This document shows positions 22,430-32,667 of a DNA stretch of 64,000 bases, piece by piece; position 1 is the stretch's first letter, and each line of letters begins with the position of its first letter. Source of the DNA: Holophagaceae bacterium (lineage in GTDB: Bacteria > Acidobacteriota > Holophagae > Holophagales > Holophagaceae). The notes beneath the pieces were generated by a model. It searched no databases, had not been told where the DNA came from, and saw only the letters and a program-made list of their open reading frames with translations. Made by a program: the position numbers and the translations under genes. Location of the stretch: NCBI GenBank assembly GCA_021286765.1, contig JAJTBS010000002.1:186001-250000 (forward strand), given 5' to 3'.

Positions 22430-22601
22430 ACCTGATCCACGCCCATCCCTTCGTCAATGCATACAATGCCTCGACCCCGACCACGATGCTGCCTCACCGC
22501 AGGACTTTCGTCAGTGATTCCCAGGTTGGGTGGGGCAGGTGCCACATTGGCCGGTACACTTCTAACGAAATCCTGGTTGAGTGCATGAGAGTGAGGACGC
22601 T

Positions 22602-24323
22602 GTGATCCCGATGAAACAAGCTTTGCCCTGGTTTCGACTTGTGCTGCTTTTGGGGGTGCTCTCCGGCGGCGCGCCGGCCTCAGGACAGCATCTTGCCGGG
22701 CGGGGAGCCAAGCCAACCACAGTGGCGGGGTACCCAGCCGAGAAGGCACTGGCGCTGGGGGAGCGCATGTACCGGGAGGGGGTGCTCCCAGATGGCACGG
22801 CCATGCGCACGGGGAGTGGCGGTGAGGCCTCGGTTGCCGGAACCACCTACACCTGCGCCAGCTGTCACCTGCGGAGTGGGCTGGGGTCAAACGAGGGCGG
22901 CGTGGTGACGCTGCCAATCAATGGCAATAAATTGGGCCAGACCCGCTACTGGAAGTACCCGAACCTCCTGCCTGAGGAGCGGAAGAACCTGCGCGTTCAG
23001 ACCCCGATCGCACGACCTCCCTATGACGATGGGACGCTCGCAAAGGCCATTCGCACAGGGATTGACCCCAGTGGCCGGGTGTTGAACCAGGCCATGCCCA
23101 GGTATGACCTGAGCGATGAGAACATGGCGATCCTGATTCACTACCTCTGGTCCCTATCGGCGGACTACTCCCCAGGTGCCGACAAAAACAGCATCCGGTT
23201 TGCCACGGTCATCACGGACGAGGTGAGTCCTCAAGACCAGGATGCCATGCTGATACCCATCAACAATTACATCGCAAGGCATAATGCCCACGCCCATGGC
23301 ATGGACACCAGGATGTATGGAAGCATCGGCGGGGAGGAAATGATCGGTTCCTTCCGCACCCTCTCCGTGGATGTGTGGCGATTGAAGGGGGCCCCCGAAA
23401 CCTGGAACGCTCAACTAGAAGCCTACCTCGCCAAGAGTCCGGTCTTTGCTCTGCTGGGGGGCATCTCGTACCGAGAGTGGGAACCCATCCATCTTTTTTG
23501 CGAAAAGCATCGACTTCCCTGCCTCTTCCCGATCACGGATCTGCCGGTCATTTCGGATTCGGCCTGGTACACACAATATTTTTCTAAAGGGTATTTCCAG
23601 GAAGGGGAGGCGGCCGCCCGATTTCTGGGAGACCAGGATTATCAGACGGCAGGCGACCGGGTCTTCCAGATCATCCAGGCTGGGCCTGAAGCACGGGAAC
23701 TCGCGGCAGGGTTCCGGGAGGCTTGGAAGGACCTCGGAAAGGAAGCTCCGAAGGAAATGCAGCTCAAGCCTGGGGAGCTACTCACCAGCGACTCGGTGCG
23801 CAAACTGCTTGAACACGAGAGGCCCACTGCGCTGATTCTTTGGCAGGGCAGCGGTGCTTCGGAAGTCATCAGGAGCCTTGAACAGCTGGAAGAGCGCCCC
23901 GGAGGGGTCATCGTCTCCTCAAGGCTTCTTGGTTCGAAGATGATGGATTTTCCGGAAAAGGCATGGCCCTTCATCTGGATCACCTACCCCTACCGGGAGC
24001 CACTTGAGGAGCCAAAAATCTCTCGCCAGGCAGTGCCGCTCATGAAGGGAATCACCTCTCCGAAGCCTGAATCACGGATCTCCACCCGGACCTATTCCAT
24101 GCTGATGATTCTTCAGGCAGCCATGGTTGAAATGGATAGGAACATTTACCGCGACAACTTGATGGACCGCATTGGACTGCTCCGGGATTATGTGCTCCCG
24201 GACTACCTGCGCCTCAGCTTCGGTCCAGGCCAACGTTATGCTTCCAAGGGCTGCTACATCATGCAGATCCTACCCGGGAAGGAACCACGACTCTGGCGCA
24301 GCAGCGAGTGGGTGATTCAATGA
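22602..24323 (+). CDS. Cytochrome c fused to periplasmic binding protein-like domain
   Basis: A ~573-residue exported protein. After a signal peptide (L-V-L-L-L-G-V-L-S-G-G-A-P-A-S-G), a single-haem cytochrome c domain spans about residues 40-165, with haem motif C-A-S-C-H (Cys85, Cys88, His89) and a likely axial Met in L-N-Q-A-M-P-R-Y-D. Residues ~190-570 resemble a type-1 periplasmic binding protein of the branched-chain amino acid kind (alternating beta/alpha, A-L-L-G-G-I-S-Y and P-C-L-F-P-I-T-D segments). GTG 22602 has GAGGA at close spacing; ATG 22611 is the alternative. A role in periplasmic electron transfer coupled to ligand binding is inference. Confidence 0.75.
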   Translation: MIPMKQALPWFRLVLLLGVLSGGAPASGQHLAGRGAKPTTVAGYPAEKALALGERMYREGVLPDGTAMRTGSGGEASVAGTTYTCASCHLRSGLGSNEGGVVTLPINGNKLGQTRYWKYPNLLPEERKNLRVQTPIARPPYDDGTLAKAIRTGIDPSGRVLNQAMPRYDLSDENMAILIHYLWSLSADYSPGADKNSIRFATVITDEVSPQDQDAMLIPINNYIARHNAHAHGMDTRMYGSIGGEEMIGSFRTLSVDVWRLKGAPETWNAQLEAYLAKSPVFALLGGISYREWEPIHLFCEKHRLPCLFPITDLPVISDSAWYTQYFSKGYFQEGEAAARFLGDQDYQTAGDRVFQIIQAGPEARELAAGFREAWKDLGKEAPKEMQLKPGELLTSDSVRKLLEHERPTALILWQGSGASEVIRSLEQLEERPGGVIVSSRLLGSKMMDFPEKAWPFIWITYPYREPLEEPKISRQAVPLMKGITSPKPESRISTRTYSMLMILQAAMVEMDRNIYRDNLMDRIGLLRDYVLPDYLRLSFGPGQRYASKGCYIMQILPGKEPRLWRSSEWVIQ

Positions 24324-24387: not shown

Positions 24388-26277
24388 ATGCGAGCGTTCA
24401 GATCGGTAGGTTGGGTGGTGCTATTCGGCTTGGCGCTGCTCTCGTTGGCTTGCAAAGAGGTCGCGGTGGCCCCCGCGGCCCTCAGCTACAGCAACAATCC
24501 AGCGGTCTACACCGTTGGAACAGCCATCCCGACGAACACTCCCACCCATGGTGGTGGGAATCCCGATTCCTACACGGTCAGTCCGGCTTTGCCAGATGGG
24601 CTCGTCCTCGATTCCAAGTCAGGATCCATCACTGGTACCCCCACGACGGCCTCTGCGGCGGCAAGTCATACGGTGACTGCCACCAACAGTGCGGGCAGCA
24701 CGACAGCCACGCTCACCATTACGGTCAATGCAAAGCCAGCGCCCATCTCCATCACGACGCAACCTGCCAGCCAGACGGTCTTGGTTGGCCAGGCGGCCAC
24801 CTTCACTGTGGTCGCGACTGGGACCGGAACCCTCTCCTATCAGTGGGCCAAAGGGGGAGTGGCCATCCCTGGTGCCACCTCCGCCTCCTACACGACACCT
24901 GCGACCGTACTGGCCGATGACGGCAGCTCCTTCACTGTGGACATCTCCGATACCAACGGGAACATCTTGAGCAGCAACCCGGCAATCCTCACGGTGACCG
25001 CGGTCGTTCCCGTGACCATCACGACTCAGCCGGTGGACCAGTCCGTCATGGTGGGGCAGACCGCCACGTTCAGTGTGGTCGCCAGCGGAAGCGGAACCCT
25101 GACTTATCAGTGGTCGAAGGATGGCGTGACGATTCCGAGCGCCACCGCCGCATCCTATACAACCCCTGCCACCGTGATCGCCGACAACGGCAGCACCTTC
25201 AGTGTGCATATCACGGCAGGGAATGGGCAGAGCGCCACCAGCAACAGTGCGACCTTGACGGTGCTCTCCTCCTCGGGTGGACCGGGAACTTGCATCGCGA
25301 CGGGCAGCCTGGCCGGCATGCGCCACTCCCATACGGCCACTCTGCTTTCCAGCGGGAAGGTCCTTATCGTGGGCGGATACAGCGGTACTGCCCTTGATTC
25401 TGCCGAGCTCTATGATCCCGCAACGGGCACCTTCTCTTCCGCTGGCAGCTTGGCCACCGCGAGGTACTCCCACACGGCCACCTTACTGCCCAACGGCAAG
25501 GTACTCGTTGCAGGGGGCTACGGGTTTGCGGGCGTGAGCAAATCCGCTGAACTTTATGACCCAGCGACCAACAGCTTCTCTGCAGCTGGTTCCATGGTTT
25601 CAGAACGCGCTGAACACACCGCGACTTCGCTTCCGAGCGGAAAGGTGCTGATCGTCTCAGGACGTGGCCTCATCACCTACTTGAAGACTGCCGAGCTCTA
25701 CGATCCCGGCACCAATGCCTTCACCGCTACCGCTGGGGTTCCGATCGTGGCCAGAATCGACCACACCGCCAGTCTCCTGGGAAGCGGCAAGGTCCTCATC
25801 ACTGGTGGTCAGACCACCGGTGCCCTGTCAGCTTCCGAGCTCTACGACCCTGCGACGGATGCCTTCACCTCGACAGGCGGCCTTTCCATGCCGAGGGTCT
25901 ATCACACGGCCACCGTGCTCGCGAACGGCAAGGTGCTGGTGGTGGGGGGCGCCTTGACGGATGTGGCCGAGCTCTACGACCCAGCCGCCGGCACCTTCAC
26001 CGCCACGGCAGGGAACCTGGTCCTGCAGCGGGCCAAGTTGCATGCCGCGGTGCTCCTGCCGACCGGGCAAGTGCTCATCAGCGGTGGCCTTGGCTCAGGG
26101 GGGGTGGTGCTCTCTGCCAATGAGCTCTTTGATCCCGCTACTGGCAGCTTTACCGCCACGGGCTCGATGACGACCGGCAGGCGGATCCACACCGCCACCC
26201 TGCTCGGGACCGGGAAGGTCCTGCTGGCAGCAGGGTTGGGAGGAACCTACCTCTTGAGCGCAGAGCTCTACTATTGA
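24388..26277 (+). CDS. Ig-like and Kelch-repeat lipoprotein
   Basis: A 629-residue surface or periplasmic lipoprotein. The signal ends L-S-L-A-C with Cys22 as lipidation site. Residues ~30-115 are a putative-Ig domain (P-D-G-L-V-L-D-S-K-S-G-S-I-T-G-T-P). Two immunoglobulin-like repeats follow (about 117-205 and 208-292; each starts I-T-T-Q-P and includes Y-Q-W). The C-terminal half has about seven Kelch-type blades with H-T-A-T-L-L, G-K-V-L-I-V-G-G and S-A-E-L-Y-D-P-A-T, predicting a beta propeller. Such proteins bind other proteins or polysaccharides. It lies between the cytochrome and multicopper oxidase genes; partners are not known. Confidence 0.85.
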   Translation: MRAFRSVGWVVLFGLALLSLACKEVAVAPAALSYSNNPAVYTVGTAIPTNTPTHGGGNPDSYTVSPALPDGLVLDSKSGSITGTPTTASAAASHTVTATNSAGSTTATLTITVNAKPAPISITTQPASQTVLVGQAATFTVVATGTGTLSYQWAKGGVAIPGATSASYTTPATVLADDGSSFTVDISDTNGNILSSNPAILTVTAVVPVTITTQPVDQSVMVGQTATFSVVASGSGTLTYQWSKDGVTIPSATAASYTTPATVIADNGSTFSVHITAGNGQSATSNSATLTVLSSSGGPGTCIATGSLAGMRHSHTATLLSSGKVLIVGGYSGTALDSAELYDPATGTFSSAGSLATARYSHTATLLPNGKVLVAGGYGFAGVSKSAELYDPATNSFSAAGSMVSERAEHTATSLPSGKVLIVSGRGLITYLKTAELYDPGTNAFTATAGVPIVARIDHTASLLGSGKVLITGGQTTGALSASELYDPATDAFTSTGGLSMPRVYHTATVLANGKVLVVGGALTDVAELYDPAAGTFTATAGNLVLQRAKLHAAVLLPTGQVLISGGLGSGGVVLSANELFDPATGSFTATGSMTTGRRIHTATLLGTGKVLLAAGLGGTYLLSAELYY

Positions 26278-26509: not shown

Positions 26510-26663
26510 AGTCCCAAGCCCCCAGCCATCCGATGCTTACCTTTCATTGAAACCCCAACAGCACCCGGCCCGCAGTCCTGAGGACATGTCGGGCCTCTTT
26601 CCATCGCCTTTCCACCTGCTCTTTCCTTCCCCCACCAGCTCTTCTCACAAAGCGAGGTGCTTC

Positions 26664-29600
26664 ATGCTCCAAAAGTTCAACCGTCTGCTGGCGCTCGCCG
26701 CAGCCCTGTTTGCGGGAGTCGGTCTTTACGCCGAAAAACCCGCAGGCCAGGAGCCGCAGCGTCGCACAGCCGCACCCACGGTAGGTGGCGATCAGAACGC
26801 CATCATCGAGCGTGCCGTCCGTCGTCGCACGATGATGGAGGCCCGCAAGGCCGCCGCTGAGCGCACCCGTCCGGCGCGTGAAGCCGCCATGGCCGCCGCC
26901 AAGGCCGCCGCGAAGACCAAGGGCTCGGTCCAGTTCTACAAGGCCGCCCCGGTCGCCGCAGGCGCCGTGGTCGCCCCGGCTCCGTACGGGCAGATGGATC
27001 CCCTGGGCACTCCTCACTACATGGATGGCCTGATTCCCAACTACGCCAACACCGATCCCCTCCAGAAGTTCATCCACACGCTGCCTGGCCTTGGGGCTGC
27101 CCAGGCCAACGACCTCGGGAACTACATTCCCGTCGGCGTGCCTGATCGGGCCACGTACCCTGGCTCTGATTACTACAACATTGACTTGGTCGACTACACG
27201 CAGAAGCTGCACTCTGATCTGCCGAAGGCGACCCGGCTGCGCGGTTACAAACAGCACGGCACAGATACGGCTAATGCTGTCAGCGGTGGCTCTTCCAATT
27301 ACCTTGGGCCTGTCATCGTCGCCAAGCGCGATCGCCCGGTGCGGGTGAAGTTCAACAACCTGCTCGGCATCGGCGCTGCCGGCAACCTGCCCATCCCGTC
27401 GGATGCCACCCTCATGGGCGCTGGCGCGGGCCCCGGTGGGACCACCTTCACCCAGAACCGCGCCGAGCTTCACCTTCACGGTGGCCTCAACCCATGGATC
27501 AGTGACGGCACCCCCCACCAGTGGTTCACCCCCGCTGGCGATCCCACCGCCAACAAGAAGGGCGTCTCCTTCCGGAACGTGCCCGACATGATCGGCGTGG
27601 ATGGCGTCACCAACCAGCCTGGTGACGGCATCGGCACCTACTTCTACACCAACCAGCAGAGCGGTCGTTTCCTCTTCTACCATGACCACTCCTTCGGCCT
27701 CACCCGCCTGAACGTCTACATGGGTGAAGCGGCTGGCTACCTGATCGTGGACCCCGTTGAGACCAAGCTGATCAACGCGGGCATCCTGCCGAGCCAGGGC
27801 GCCACCCTGCCGATCTCCGAGGACCCCTGGTCGGGCGCCAACTCCCTCGCGACCGGCAATTCCGTCTACACCTACGGCATCCCCCTCGTTTTCCAGGACA
27901 AGACCTTCGTGCCGAACGTGGCTACGAGCCTCGTCTTCCAGGATCCCACCTGGGACATCAACAACTGGGGCCAGGAAGGCGACCTCTGGTATCCGCATGT
28001 ATACATGCCCAACCAGAATCCCGACGATCCCTCCGGCGCGAATGCCATGGGCCGCTGGGACTACGGTCCGTGGTTCTGGCCTCCGGTGCCGGTTGCCGAT
28101 GCCCCCAACAGCATCCCCACGGCCCACGCCCCTATCCCTGGCTCCGGCGATCCTCTTGATGGCAATGGTGGTTTCGGCTACCCCGGCACGCCCAACCCCT
28201 CCCTGACGCCTGAGGCGTTCATGGATACCCCGGTGGTCAACGGCACGCCGTACCCCACCATCACCGTCAAGCCCCAGGCCTACCGCTTCCGCATGCTGAA
28301 CGCGGCCAATGACCGCCCCTTCAGCTTCGCCTTCTATACCGCGGATCCTGCCGCCCTGACCGAAGTGAAGATGGTTGAGGCCTCTCCCTCCGTCGCGACC
28401 GCGGCTGCCGCTTACCTCGCGAACAAGTACGGCACCGTCCCGACGGACCCCACCCTTCCTGTGTGGCCGAAGGATGGCCGCGCCGGCGGCGTGGTGGATT
28501 ACACCACCATCGGCCCCGACATCATCCAGATCGGCAACGAGAGCGGCTTTCTGCCCGCACCCGTGGTCTTCCGGTCGCAGCCGACCACCTACAACTACAA
28601 CCGGCGCGACATCGTCGTGCTGGACGTGGACAAGCACGCCCTCTGGCTGGCTCCTGCCGAGCGCGCGGATGTCATCGTCGACTTCTCCGCCTTCCAGGGC
28701 CAGACCCTGATCCTCTACAACGACATGCTGGCCCCCGTGCCTGCATTCGACGTCCGGTACGACTACTTCACCGGCCCCGACGCGGATCAGTCGGCCACCG
28801 GTGGCGCCCTCGGTGCCACCCCTGGGTTCGGCCCCAATACCCGCACCCTCATGCAGTTCGTGGTAACCAATGACCAGCCTGCTGCGGCGTTTGACATTGC
28901 CGGCCTGCAGAACGCCTTCGTGTCTACCGGGACCTCTGATGGCGCCTTCAAGGCCAGCCAGCACCCCCCGATCGTCCCCCAGACGTTCTACAACGACGCC
29001 ATGAACACAGCTTATCCGGCTGATACCTATGCCCGGATCCAGGACTACCAGAAGACCTACACCCGGACGGAGAATGGCGACGTTGTCACCATGCCCTTCC
29101 AGCCCAAGGCCATCCAGGAACTCTTCGAACTGGACTACGGCCGCATGAACGCCACCCTCGGCGTCGAACTGCCCTTCACCAACTTCAACAACCAGACGAC
29201 CATTCCTCTTGGTTACTCGGAGCTGCCGACTGAGTTCGTCACCGACGGCAGCACCCAACTCTGGAAGATCACCCACAACGGCGTGGACACCCACCCCGTG
29301 CACTTCCACCTGTTCGACGTTCAGATCATGAACCGTGTGGGTTGGGACGGCGCCGTGCGCTTCCCCGAGGACAATGAACTTGGTTGGAAGGAAACGGTCC
29401 GGATGAAGCCGCTGGAAGACATCGTTGTCGCCTTCCGGCCCCGCTCTCCGCACCTGCCTTTCTCGCTTTCCAACAACCTGCGATTGCTTGATCCCACCAA
29501 GGATGCCACTGCATTGGTTCCGACCACGGACCTTGCAGCCGGCCAGCCCAACCAGGGCAACCTCGGCAACATCATCCAGGTTTCCAACAACAATGGCGGC

Positions 29601-31208
29601 GCTTTCTACGACTACGGCTGGGAATACGTGTGGCACTGCCACATTCTCGGTCATGAAGAGAACGACTTCATGCGTCCCATGGTGCTGAGTGTCGCCAGCA
29701 CCGTTCCGGCAGCTCCCACTGGTTTGACGGCAAACTTTGCTGGCGTAACCTCGGTTGCTCTCAATTGGACCGACAACGCCACCAACGAAGTTAGCTACAT
29801 CATTCAGCGCAAGGACGGTGTCAACGGCACCTTCACTACGATTGCCGAGCTTGTCCCTGATGTAAGGAACTATACCGATCTCACGACGGTGGCTGGGGTC
29901 GTTTATTACTATCAGGTGCTTGCCTGGAATCAGGCGGGTTACTCTGCAGCGTCTAACGCTGTAAACAATGGCGTGACCATTGCCGGTACTGTGTTCATCC
30001 CCGGCACTCCCATTACGCCCGTTGCTGGCGTCACAGTTTCTGCCAGTAACGGAGGGAATAGCGTTGTCACAGGGGCGAACGGCCTCTACACCGTGGTTGT
30101 TCCCTCCGGTTGGAGCGGCACCGTTACGCCTTCCTTCGGTAACGTGGTCCTGCAGCCTACCAGCCGCACCTACACGAACCTTACGATTAACCAGGTTGGC
30201 CAGAATTTTACTTACAGCAATGGCGTGACCATTTCTGGACAAGTAACACGAAATGGCGCGGCCCTATCGGGAGTCACGATCACCTTCAGCAATGGTGGTG
30301 GCACGGCGACAACGGATGCTTCGGGTAACTACTCCAAGCTCCAAGTTTCTGGCTGGAGTGGTACGTCCACAGCCTCCTTGGCTGGCGGTTATACGTTCTC
30401 TGCTCCCTATACTTACACCAATCTTGTTGCAGATATCGGCGCGCAGAATTTCACCGTGACCGGCATTAACATCACCGGTCAGACCTACTCAGTGTTCAAT
30501 CCCTACACTCCGATCTCTGGTGTGGTCCTCACGGTTTCAACCGTAGGAACAGTTACTTCCGACGTGAACGGGTTCTACACTGCCGTTGTCCCTGCCAATT
30601 GGTCCGGGACCATCACTCCTGCCAAGTCCGGCTGGACCTTCAGTCCCACCAACCGCACGTTCACTAACGTGCTCACGCCGCAGACCTCTCGCAGCTTTGT
30701 TGGCACCCTTGCTCCGGTTAATGTCACTGGCACGGTCACACGCAATGGGGTTGGCCTCTCTGGCGTTACCATTACCTTTAGCAATGGCGGCGGCACCGCT
30801 ACCACCAACGGCTCTGGCGCCTACACGCGGTCTGTGCCCAATGGTTGGTCTGGCACGGCGACCGCGAGCTTGACCGGGTATAACTTCAGCGCCCCGATCA
30901 CCCTTACCAACGTCACTGCTGCCTCTGCCAACAACAACTTCACCGTTGCCAGTGTCAACATCTCGGGTGCGGTCTACGTGCTGAATTCGAATCCCTTGGT
31001 CCCGGTTCCCGGAGTCACGATTACCCTAACGGGCTCGTTCACGGGAACTACGACCACCGCTGCGAATGGCACCTACAGCATTGCAGTTCCTCTTGGCTTC
31101 ACTGGCACCCTGACCTTCTCACTCCCTGGGTTCACCATTTCGCCGACGTCCAGGAACTACACCAACGTCCTTACCCCGCAGACAGGCCAGAATGCTCGGA
31201 GGAATTAA
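26664..31208 (+). CDS. Giant secreted multicopper oxidase with FN3 and tandem repeats
   Basis: A 1514-residue exported protein. The start at 26664 (GAGGTG upstream) begins the signal peptide M-L-Q-K-F-N-R-L-L-A-L-A-A-A-L-F. An Ala/Arg/Lys-rich linker (about 35-110) precedes the CotA-like oxidase. Copper ligands are visible in H-L-H-G (270-273), Y-H-D-H (339-342), H-P-V-H-F-H (877-882) and W-H-C-H-I-L-G-H-E (990-998), with Cys992 and His997 for type 1 copper. By alignment with CotA the axial ligand position is Phe1002, not Met. An FN3 domain (about 1014-1098) and five beta-sandwich-like repeats (1103-1514) follow. It may oxidise metals, phenolics or outer-surface electron carriers; substrate unknown. 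A terminator follows. Confidence 0.92.
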   Translation: MLQKFNRLLALAAALFAGVGLYAEKPAGQEPQRRTAAPTVGGDQNAIIERAVRRRTMMEARKAAAERTRPAREAAMAAAKAAAKTKGSVQFYKAAPVAAGAVVAPAPYGQMDPLGTPHYMDGLIPNYANTDPLQKFIHTLPGLGAAQANDLGNYIPVGVPDRATYPGSDYYNIDLVDYTQKLHSDLPKATRLRGYKQHGTDTANAVSGGSSNYLGPVIVAKRDRPVRVKFNNLLGIGAAGNLPIPSDATLMGAGAGPGGTTFTQNRAELHLHGGLNPWISDGTPHQWFTPAGDPTANKKGVSFRNVPDMIGVDGVTNQPGDGIGTYFYTNQQSGRFLFYHDHSFGLTRLNVYMGEAAGYLIVDPVETKLINAGILPSQGATLPISEDPWSGANSLATGNSVYTYGIPLVFQDKTFVPNVATSLVFQDPTWDINNWGQEGDLWYPHVYMPNQNPDDPSGANAMGRWDYGPWFWPPVPVADAPNSIPTAHAPIPGSGDPLDGNGGFGYPGTPNPSLTPEAFMDTPVVNGTPYPTITVKPQAYRFRMLNAANDRPFSFAFYTADPAALTEVKMVEASPSVATAAAAYLANKYGTVPTDPTLPVWPKDGRAGGVVDYTTIGPDIIQIGNESGFLPAPVVFRSQPTTYNYNRRDIVVLDVDKHALWLAPAERADVIVDFSAFQGQTLILYNDMLAPVPAFDVRYDYFTGPDADQSATGGALGATPGFGPNTRTLMQFVVTNDQPAAAFDIAGLQNAFVSTGTSDGAFKASQHPPIVPQTFYNDAMNTAYPADTYARIQDYQKTYTRTENGDVVTMPFQPKAIQELFELDYGRMNATLGVELPFTNFNNQTTIPLGYSELPTEFVTDGSTQLWKITHNGVDTHPVHFHLFDVQIMNRVGWDGAVRFPEDNELGWKETVRMKPLEDIVVAFRPRSPHLPFSLSNNLRLLDPTKDATALVPTTDLAAGQPNQGNLGNIIQVSNNNGGAFYDYGWEYVWHCHILGHEENDFMRPMVLSVASTVPAAPTGLTANFAGVTSVALNWTDNATNEVSYIIQRKDGVNGTFTTIAELVPDVRNYTDLTTVAGVVYYYQVLAWNQAGYSAASNAVNNGVTIAGTVFIPGTPITPVAGVTVSASNGGNSVVTGANGLYTVVVPSGWSGTVTPSFGNVVLQPTSRTYTNLTINQVGQNFTYSNGVTISGQVTRNGAALSGVTITFSNGGGTATTDASGNYSKLQVSGWSGTSTASLAGGYTFSAPYTYTNLVADIGAQNFTVTGINITGQTYSVFNPYTPISGVVLTVSTVGTVTSDVNGFYTAVVPANWSGTITPAKSGWTFSPTNRTFTNVLTPQTSRSFVGTLAPVNVTGTVTRNGVGLSGVTITFSNGGGTATTNGSGAYTRSVPNGWSGTATASLTGYNFSAPITLTNVTAASANNNFTVASVNISGAVYVLNSNPLVPVPGVTITLTGSFTGTTTTAANGTYSIAVPLGFTGTLTFSLPGFTISPTSRNYTNVLTPQTGQNARRN
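29971..31205 (+). repeat. Five tandem ~80-residue repeats within the oxidase gene
   Basis: Repeats start near 29971, 30222, 30462, 30717 and 30953. All share V-x-I-x-G-x-V, a middle G-x-Y-x-x-x-V-P-x-x-W-S-G-T and a final T-Y-T-N-(L/V) segment. They alternate: units 2 and 4 contain V-T-R-N-G followed by L-S-G-V-T-I-T-F-S-N-G-G-G, while 1, 3 and 5 have a longer proline-containing loop and P-T-x-R-x-(Y/F)-T-N. The DNA is diverged although the protein is conserved, so the array is old. Resembles carboxypeptidase-regulatory-like or SdrD B-like domains. Confidence 0.8.
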
Positions 31209-31438: not shown

Positions 31439-31542
31439 TTGGTGAATTTAGAACGCCGTCCGTGAAAGCAATGCTATTGATCTCAGGCGAGCCTACTCGC
31501 CCAAAACCAACATGCGAAATGGATTTATTTTCGAGGAAATCG

Positions 31543-32667
31543 ATGCGAAACAAGTCCTTACCGCGATCCTTTTACCTTCTAGGAATGATCGGATCTTTCC
31601 TTCTCATTGCCTGCCGTGCCCCCGGAATGAAGATGAGCCCAGTTGGGAGCGAGAAAGTCGTAACCGTTCAGGTCAACGGTCAGCAGGTGACCCTTCGCCC
31701 GTTGAATGCGCAGGCCGTTGCTGCTTTTCGTTCCCAAGCTCCTCCGATTGAGTCCATGGAGGAACTACTTTCCACCAAGCCGGAGGCCTACAAGATTGGC
31801 CCTCAAGACACTCTCGTGGTGACCGTTTGGGACCACCCTGAACTGACCCTCCCATTGGGCCAGTTCAGGTCGGACGCAGCTACTGGGATGGTGGTGGACG
31901 AATCTGGGAACCTCTACTTCCCATACGTCGGGAAGTTTAAAGTCGCTGGGCTGAGTGTGACCCAAGTTCGTGAAATGCTCACCGCCAAACTCGATCGTGT
32001 CCTGCAAAAGCCCCAGGTGGATGTCAAAGTCCTTTTCTTCCGGTCCCAGAAGGCGTTCGTCGGTGGAGAAGTTCGGACACCCGGCACATACACCATCACC
32101 GATGTGCCGTTCACGCTTGCGGAAGCGCTGAATAGGGCCGGGGGATTCCTGCCCACGGCCGATTTGAGCCGGTTCGACCTGATCCGCGGCAATCGGAAAT
32201 GGACCTTGGACTTCCTTGATCTCATGACCCAGGGGAACAGGATCGGCCAAATCCTCGTGAAAGACGGGGATACCATCCACGTCCACCACCGTGAAGAGTC
32301 GCCAGTCTACTTGCTGGGGGAAGTCCGTAACCCCGGTTCGGTTTCGCCCATCAACGGTCGGCTCAGCCTGGCACAGGCTCTGGCTCAGGCCGGTGGGATC
32401 AACAACCTGAGCGCAGACCCGCGTTCCATCTATGTGTTCCGCCGAGGCTCGAGCGAGAATGCCGTGGATGTCTTTCACCTGGATGCCTACAACCCGGTCG
32501 GCCTCGTGTTGGCGGACCGCTTTGCCCTTCAGCCAAGGGATGTGGTCTATGTGGATGCCGGCAGCCTCGTTCGGTGGAACCGCGTGGTCAGTCTGATCGT
32601 TCCCACCACCACCCTCGTGACAAGCCTTCCCGGCGCGGTCAATGACGGCAAGACGGCCTTTAAGTAG
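31543..32667 (+). CDS. wza: Wza-like polysaccharide export lipoprotein
   Basis: A 374-residue outer-membrane secretin-like lipoprotein through which capsule or exopolysaccharide leaves the cell. The signal ends L-L-I-A-C with Cys24 as lipidation site. A polysaccharide-export (Poly_export) domain starts Y-K-I-G-P-Q-D-T-L-V-V-T-V-W (about residue 90), followed by two SLBB domains (F-V-G-G-E-V-R-T-P-G and L-L-G-E-V-R-N-P-G). The ATG at 31543 with GAGGA just upstream is preferred over an upstream in-frame ATG at 31462. First gene of a Wza-Wzb-Wzc export set. Confidence 0.92.
   Translation: MRNKSLPRSFYLLGMIGSFLLIACRAPGMKMSPVGSEKVVTVQVNGQQVTLRPLNAQAVAAFRSQAPPIESMEELLSTKPEAYKIGPQDTLVVTVWDHPELTLPLGQFRSDAATGMVVDESGNLYFPYVGKFKVAGLSVTQVREMLTAKLDRVLQKPQVDVKVLFFRSQKAFVGGEVRTPGTYTITDVPFTLAEALNRAGGFLPTADLSRFDLIRGNRKWTLDFLDLMTQGNRIGQILVKDGDTIHVHHREESPVYLLGEVRNPGSVSPINGRLSLAQALAQAGGINNLSADPRSIYVFRRGSSENAVDVFHLDAYNPVGLVLADRFALQPRDVVYVDAGSLVRWNRVVSLIVPTTTLVTSLPGAVNDGKTAFK

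Follow-up and report, generated by a model that had tools for sequence, protein, structure and literature searches.

A protein encoded in a 64,000-nucleotide stretch of Geothrix DNA (hereafter, the window) combines in one chain an exported class I cytochrome c domain, with a CASCH motif and a distal Met, and a type I periplasmic-binding domain. Judged by its architecture and its neighbors, it is a further member of the MofC-like proteins, and its gene is clustered with genes for a Kelch-repeat lipoprotein and a large secreted multicopper oxidase (MCO). Comparison of acidobacterial loci with such a fusion revealed that its most constant partner is SCO1/SenC, a copper chaperone of which the window keeps a remnant. 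We tentatively propose, with a confidence that comes near to an even chance and stays short of it, that the fusion serves the secreted copper oxidase as an accessory in the periplasm, acting together with SCO in copper loading or redox chemistry. The following features of the window carry the argument.

22453..22605 (+): decayed SCO1/SenC copper-chaperone remnant, C-terminal ~51 residues, CxxxC gone; stop codon TGA at 22603-22605
22602..24323 (+): cytochrome c/periplasmic-binding-protein fusion (MofC-like), 573 aa from GTG, with signal peptide
22854..22868 (+): heme c attachment motif CASCH
23094..23096 (+): predicted distal heme ligand, Met of the MPRY motif; Met-Pro column conserved in 33 of 33 aligned sequences
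23181..24320 (+): type I periplasmic-binding-protein (Leu/Ile/Val-binding-like) domain; lower border approximate
24388..26277 (+): exported Kelch/Ig-like protein with lipobox-like site LSLAC, predicted lipoprotein; Kelch_4 E 5e-39
26664..31208 (+): large secreted MCO with CotA-like core and weak fn3 and CarbopepD-type repeats; CotA laccase 1e-36, Pfam Cu-oxidase_2
27471..27482 (+): copper motif HLHG
27681..27689 (+): copper motif HDH
29292..29309 (+): copper motif HPVHFH
29634..29672 (+): copper motif HCHILGHEENDFM, with Phe (29667-29669) at the predicted type-1 copper axial position

Domain composition and fold of the fusion protein

The reading frame at 22602-24323 is open on the forward strand and encodes a signal peptide (recognized by eye), a single CASCH motif, and a C-terminal domain of ~380 residues. 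The first-pass annotation had described a single-heme C-A-S-C-H domain joined to a binding-protein-like domain, and this description is borne out by Pfam, by homologs, and by a profile search. The window protein matches Peripla_BP_6 (E 9.8e-5, residues 260-519) and Cytochrom_C (E 0.0017), both under the Pfam cut-offs, and the homolog at locus L052 matches Peripla_BP_6 at 1.4e-45 over positions 1-342 of 343 and Cytochrom_C at 6.5e-8. Among 17 fusion sequences scanned, the window included, 15 match Peripla_BP_6 and 13 match Cytochrom_C at E<=0.01. A profile of the same 17 sequences retrieved Leu/Ile/Val-binding proteins from PDB (best 2.1e-9); a phmmer search of PDB with the window protein gave nothing significant. 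The NCBIfam search found no family for the window protein, and among four relatives L052 alone matched branched-chain and urea binding proteins, far under the cut-off.

The AlphaFold2 model of the fusion is modest (mean pLDDT 55.7): residues ~161-430 lie mostly at 62-89, with dips to 32-44, and the weak regions, mostly below 55, are the middle of the heme domain and the last ~110 residues. Foldseek matched the model to type I binding folds in general, with the sugar repressor RbsR on top. VIA-align placed 2liv first (Z 14.3, 235 aligned residues, rmsd 13.3), with close rows tied, and some of its matches covered one lobe (126-134 residues, rmsd 2.6-3.9). By the model, the structure matches, and the profile search, a type I binding-protein fold is present in the C-terminal domain, in agreement with the clear Peripla_BP_6 matches of the homologs.

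The CxxCH motif is found in 32 of 33 aligned fusions, the window included, the exception being L029, which is cut by a contig end and begins inside the fusion gene. A Met-Pro pair follows 64-82 residues after CxxCH in the 32 fusions, and its column is conserved in all 33 sequences, as expected for a His/Met cytochrome c. One of the homologous genes (L053) was found by a six-frame profile search. The GTG start at 22602 chosen in the first-pass annotation fits the overlap with the stop codon of the SCO remnant (GTGA), as in relatives. Scans for promoters and terminators gave nothing beyond the chance level.

The fusion is not new, since the same architecture beside MCO and SCO genes is in print (PMC5566968). 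Section 13 of that paper describes MofC-like proteins that combine a cytochrome c and a periplasmic-binding domain and are encoded beside SCO1 and OmpB/MofA oxidases. In 2000, MofC was proposed to act in the bacterial oxidation of Mn as a partner in electron transfer, a role still not elucidated in 2017 (PMC5566968), and the mof operon of Rubrivivax A210 is described as also including a putative copper metallochaperone. MofC-like proteins, such as Leptothrix MofC and Geobacter GSU1397, share with the window type the cytochrome c and binding domains, the cluster with a secreted MCO, and, in several cases, SCO1/SenC. In contrast to these clusters, the window has a decayed SCO gene and an intervening Kelch lipoprotein gene, and the Pfam search of window genes revealed no MofB-type isomerase among those it covered. 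Section 13 of PMC5566968 makes no mention of the Kelch gene, of the axial Phe, or of SCO decay, and literature searches for Geothrix with such oxidases and for the gene set found little. Within the scope of these searches, the new elements here are the RTGA-coupled SCO, the SCO remnant together with a fast-evolving fusion, and the axial Phe in the large MCO.

Distribution and gene neighborhood of the fusion

The fusion was found in 22 of 396 sampled Acidobacteriota genomes (E<=1e-10). Among the 32 Holophagaceae genomes in the sample, 12 carry both the fusion and the large MCO, and 20 carry neither; within the genus of the window, both are present in 11 of 26 genomes. In the plasmid collection, 12 records match the fusion, 8 of them over most of the query. 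These 8 come from Cupriavidus metallidurans and Paraburkholderia and are 30-32% identical to the fusion; in the Paraburkholderia cluster examined, a giant cadherin-like gene accompanies two MCO genes.

The gene order in Holophagaceae is SCO1/SenC, fusion, Kelch lipoprotein, and MCO, often directly behind rpoC (assigned by eye). The Kelch (24388-26277) and MCO (26664-31208) genes that the first-pass annotation placed after the fusion are real, and its suggestion of an exported redox gene set is supported. It had named two outcomes that would count against it, a second domain of another fold and an unconserved gene order; as the fold is confirmed and the order is conserved in other genomes, within Holophagaceae, neither of them occurred. 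The upstream SCO1/SenC, the most constant partner of the fusion and a remnant in the window, was absent from that annotation.

Among the 31 acidobacterial stretches with the fusion, SCO is present in 26 (in L056, ~8.5 kb away), MCO in 20 (four more are cut by a contig end), and Kelch in 18; SCO was also found in three of the four plasmid-record stretches. In five stretches (L052-L056), SCO accompanies the fusion without a convincing MCO. Apart from the truncated L029, the stretches in which no SCO was found adjoining the fusion are L045, L048, L050, and L051; two of them, L045 and L048, have an MCO gene beside it. The SCO stop codon and the fusion start codon overlap as RTGA in every one of the 18 Holophagaceae loci that have SCO; overall, 20 of the 28 SCO-fusion pairs tested (three loci counted twice) show this overlap, which suggests coupled translation.

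Other components appeared in subsets of the clusters. The sole permease family that clustered, FtsX/MacB-like (scanned with Pfam in L046), lies near the fusion only in L039, L044, and L046, with not all other neighbors annotated. Three genes of a second MCO-like family (one of them scanned with Pfam) are found near the fusion in L046, L047, and L049, and resemble the three tandem MCO genes described with a mofC-like gene in S. lithotrophicus ES-1. Another type of cluster, in L052, L053, L055, and L056, consists of a giant protein (1740-2260 aa), a propeller protein, one or two SCO, and the fusion; the giant protein of L055, the one scanned, has no Pfam match, the propeller protein of L052, the one scanned, is cytochrome-D1-like, and a DsbA-like protein follows the cluster in L052. 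The clusters without SCO in L045 (12478-16853) and L048 (13631-18043) comprise a short MCO, a small exported protein (136-150 aa, with no Pfam match in L048), and the fusion. No multiheme gene was called adjoining the window cluster; an 8-heme reading frame adjoins the SCO gene of L041. Behind the window cluster, at 31462-32667, lies a Wza-like polysaccharide export gene with a low GC3 (0.68).

The Kelch protein of the window belongs to a family in which 17 of the 19 called members, the doubtful L029 among them, carry a lipobox pattern. The possibility that it is a radical-copper oxidase was rejected, as the GlxA model scored 69 bits against a cut-off of 800.

The secreted oxidase and the SCO remnant

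The longest reading frame of the MCO gene begins at 26547, and the ATG at 26664 is its likely start. CotA laccase is the closest solved structure (1e-36), and all four copper-binding motifs are present. The fn3 repeat was detected by Pfam at E 0.025, under the cut-off, and by an Fn3-like PDB chain at 8.3e-4 (residues 1052-1128); the two EXXE motifs could easily occur by chance. A fibronectin type III domain and EXXE motifs are reported for OmpB. Like the window MCO, OmpB/MofA are large secreted four-copper oxidases with trailing repeats and a MofC-like gene in the cluster, a likeness by architecture, whereas the large MCO of Holophagaceae has Phe at the predicted type-1 axial site.

This axial position, predicted by the CotA numbering, is occupied by Phe in all 13 readable Holophagaceae copies of the large MCO (12 genomes). 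It is occupied by Met in the readable relatives from 12 genomes outside Holophagaceae and also, within the family, in three short MCOs that are paired with a fusion; these counts omit the MCO fragments L087, L089, L091, and L092, in which the motif is unreadable, and L107. The split between Phe and Met tracks one clade and thus may represent a single event. According to passages of PMC4220974, laccases with axial Met have the lowest potential and those with Phe or Leu an equal or higher one, and the second coordination sphere also affects the potential. On the basis of the axial Phe and these reported potentials, the large Holophagaceae MCO is predicted to be a high-potential oxidase.

Members of the large-MCO family are also found where the fusion is missing: outside Holophagaceae, 13 genomes match the MCO, none of them among the 22 genomes with a fusion match at E<=1e-10, and no fusion was seen in the 11 neighborhoods read gene by gene (G146 and G330 are outside the 11). 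With 10 fusion genomes and 13 MCO genomes outside the family and zero overlap between them, the large MCO was rejected as a strict partner of the fusion. In L096, L098, and L101, from other Acidobacteriota without the fusion, the large MCO adjoins apparent RND-type efflux genes (by eye), and a 544-aa neighbor in L096 has a weak SCO match (1e-5).

Of the SCO gene that 26 of the 31 related stretches have, the window keeps only a remnant, upstream of its fusion. Searches by tblastn with SCO proteins of relatives gave 24-31 bits (best E 3e-6), and among the matches listed many queries pointed to one place and one stop. For three queries (28.1-31.2 bits), none of 500 dinucleotide shuffles reached the real score; the shuffle maxima were 24.6-27.3 bits, so the weakest SCO queries alone would not stand out. 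The remnant keeps the GTGA junction and the expected stop codon. Only one other SCO was found in the genome; it shares the contig at a distance of ~60 kb and, by eye, belongs to a cytochrome-oxidase operon.

The fusion of this lineage has diverged quickly: in a tree built without L056, its branch is 0.43, compared with 0.14 for the sister L026. Tajima tests revealed excess change in the window fusion in 15 of 15 non-independent comparisons (p from 0.0035 to 3e-10); in comparisons that likewise share sequences, the window MCO was significant in 0 of 10 and, at p<0.05, the Kelch protein was in 4 of 15. Columns that do not vary among the other ten sequences are altered in the window at 26 places for the fusion (0-11 for each other sequence), at 9 for the Kelch protein (0-10), and, in an alignment of ten sequences in all, at 21 for the MCO (0-30).

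The window fusion protein is still constrained, because its dN/dS is near 0.16, compared with 0.38 between L026 and L027. Its synonymous divergence is raised as well (dS 1.6, compared with 0.47 between L026 and L027), as is that of the Kelch gene, so the speed-up is no clean sign of lost constraint, and relaxed selection was rejected as a sure cause of the fast branch. The GC3 values in the window are 0.70 for the fusion, 0.74 for Kelch, 0.76 for MCO, and 0.91 for rpoB and rpoC. Part of the speed-up may be mutational or reflect lower expression.

Possible roles of the fusion protein

Since SCO exceeds the MCO both in constancy as a partner and in tightness of coupling, and since the large MCO occurs elsewhere without the fusion, we favor a function in the loading of copper or the redox chemistry of SCO over one in catalysis. 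In the proposed pathway, the heme of the fusion would pass electrons to or from SCO-bound copper or SCO thiols, and the binding-protein domain would serve as a docking part that, in copper loading and export, recognizes SCO, the apo-oxidase, or a copper ligand. Once mature, the MCO, with its predicted high-potential type-1 copper, would use O2 to act extracellularly on Mn(II), Fe(II), or phenolics. In the window lineage, where the dedicated SCO has decayed, its place may be taken by the sole other SCO that was found in the genome. We count for this role that in the one SCO-decayed lineage the fusion is faster than its sisters and the MCO is not, and against it that the fusion adjoins an MCO without SCO in L045 and L048 and that the speed-up is confined to a single lineage. 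Other accessories that serve one periplasmic metalloenzyme are the SCO-cytochrome c fusions and the XoxG/XoxJ pair of cytochrome and binding protein of methanol dehydrogenases; these have other folds or separate chains and provide an analogy only. A literature search for SCO-cytochrome fusions found nothing.

A less probable, though serious, candidate role is that of an electron carrier in catalysis, with electrons coming from the oxidase or from metals during Mn(II)/Fe(II) oxidation or going outwards for Fe(III)/Mn(IV) reduction. Such a hypothesis has been published for both MofC and the OmpB cluster, the literature lists Geothrix among known Mn reducers and cites it for Fe(III) reduction, and the heme motifs are intact in all aligned fusions but the one on a cut contig. 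However, members of the large-MCO family do without the fusion in other genomes, no multiheme gene was called beside the window cluster, and the axial Phe suggests an oxidizing high-potential enzyme rather than a reductase. Moreover, four-copper oxidases need no cytochrome to deliver electrons to O2.

The first-pass annotation had suggested a ligand-gated electron carrier or redox sensor, in which the domain would close on an amino acid, an aromatic acid, a quinone, or a metal chelate and thereby gate electron flow through the heme. The fold is indeed that of soluble ligand-binding proteins, and aromatic-acid binders are among the matches listed, but no positive evidence for gating was found and we regard it as unlikely. 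The position aligned by hand to the pocket threonine of LivJ varies between homologs: of 17 rows, only L055 has Thr, and the other 16 have Asp, Glu, Leu, Pro, or Val. Beyond SCO, Kelch, MCO, and rpoB/rpoC, no neighbor family is shared by more than 4 of the 32 stretches, most neighbors being unannotated; thus, no constant signaling partner was seen. It is far more improbable still that the fusion is an ordinary substrate-binding protein of an ABC importer that gained a heme domain. Its C-terminal ~380 residues share the fold and a weak sequence similarity with the branched-chain amino-acid (Leu/Ile/Val) binding proteins (Peripla_BP_6, HAAT), but, unlike them, it bears heme c and lacks conservation of the classical pocket threonine, and it is paired with SCO in most stretches. 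Its window neighbors are rpoB/rpoC (by eye), Kelch, MCO, and the polysaccharide-export gene, and no ABC importer permease or ATPase genes were found among the immediate ones (rpoC by eye, Kelch, MCO, and the Wza-like gene).

The role in copper maturation can be drawn more specifically, at a correspondingly lower probability that leaves it a possibility worth stating. The fusion would be a dedicated SCO redox partner that helps to load high-potential secreted oxidases, its binding domain would have turned from uptake to docking, and the loss of SCO in Geothrix would have changed the fusion and not its client. The axial Phe provides a concrete high-potential prediction for a group better known for metal reduction. 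Through the Holophagaceae clusters, one genus offers the gene set in its presence, its absence, and its partial decay, which makes it possible to compare what each part does.
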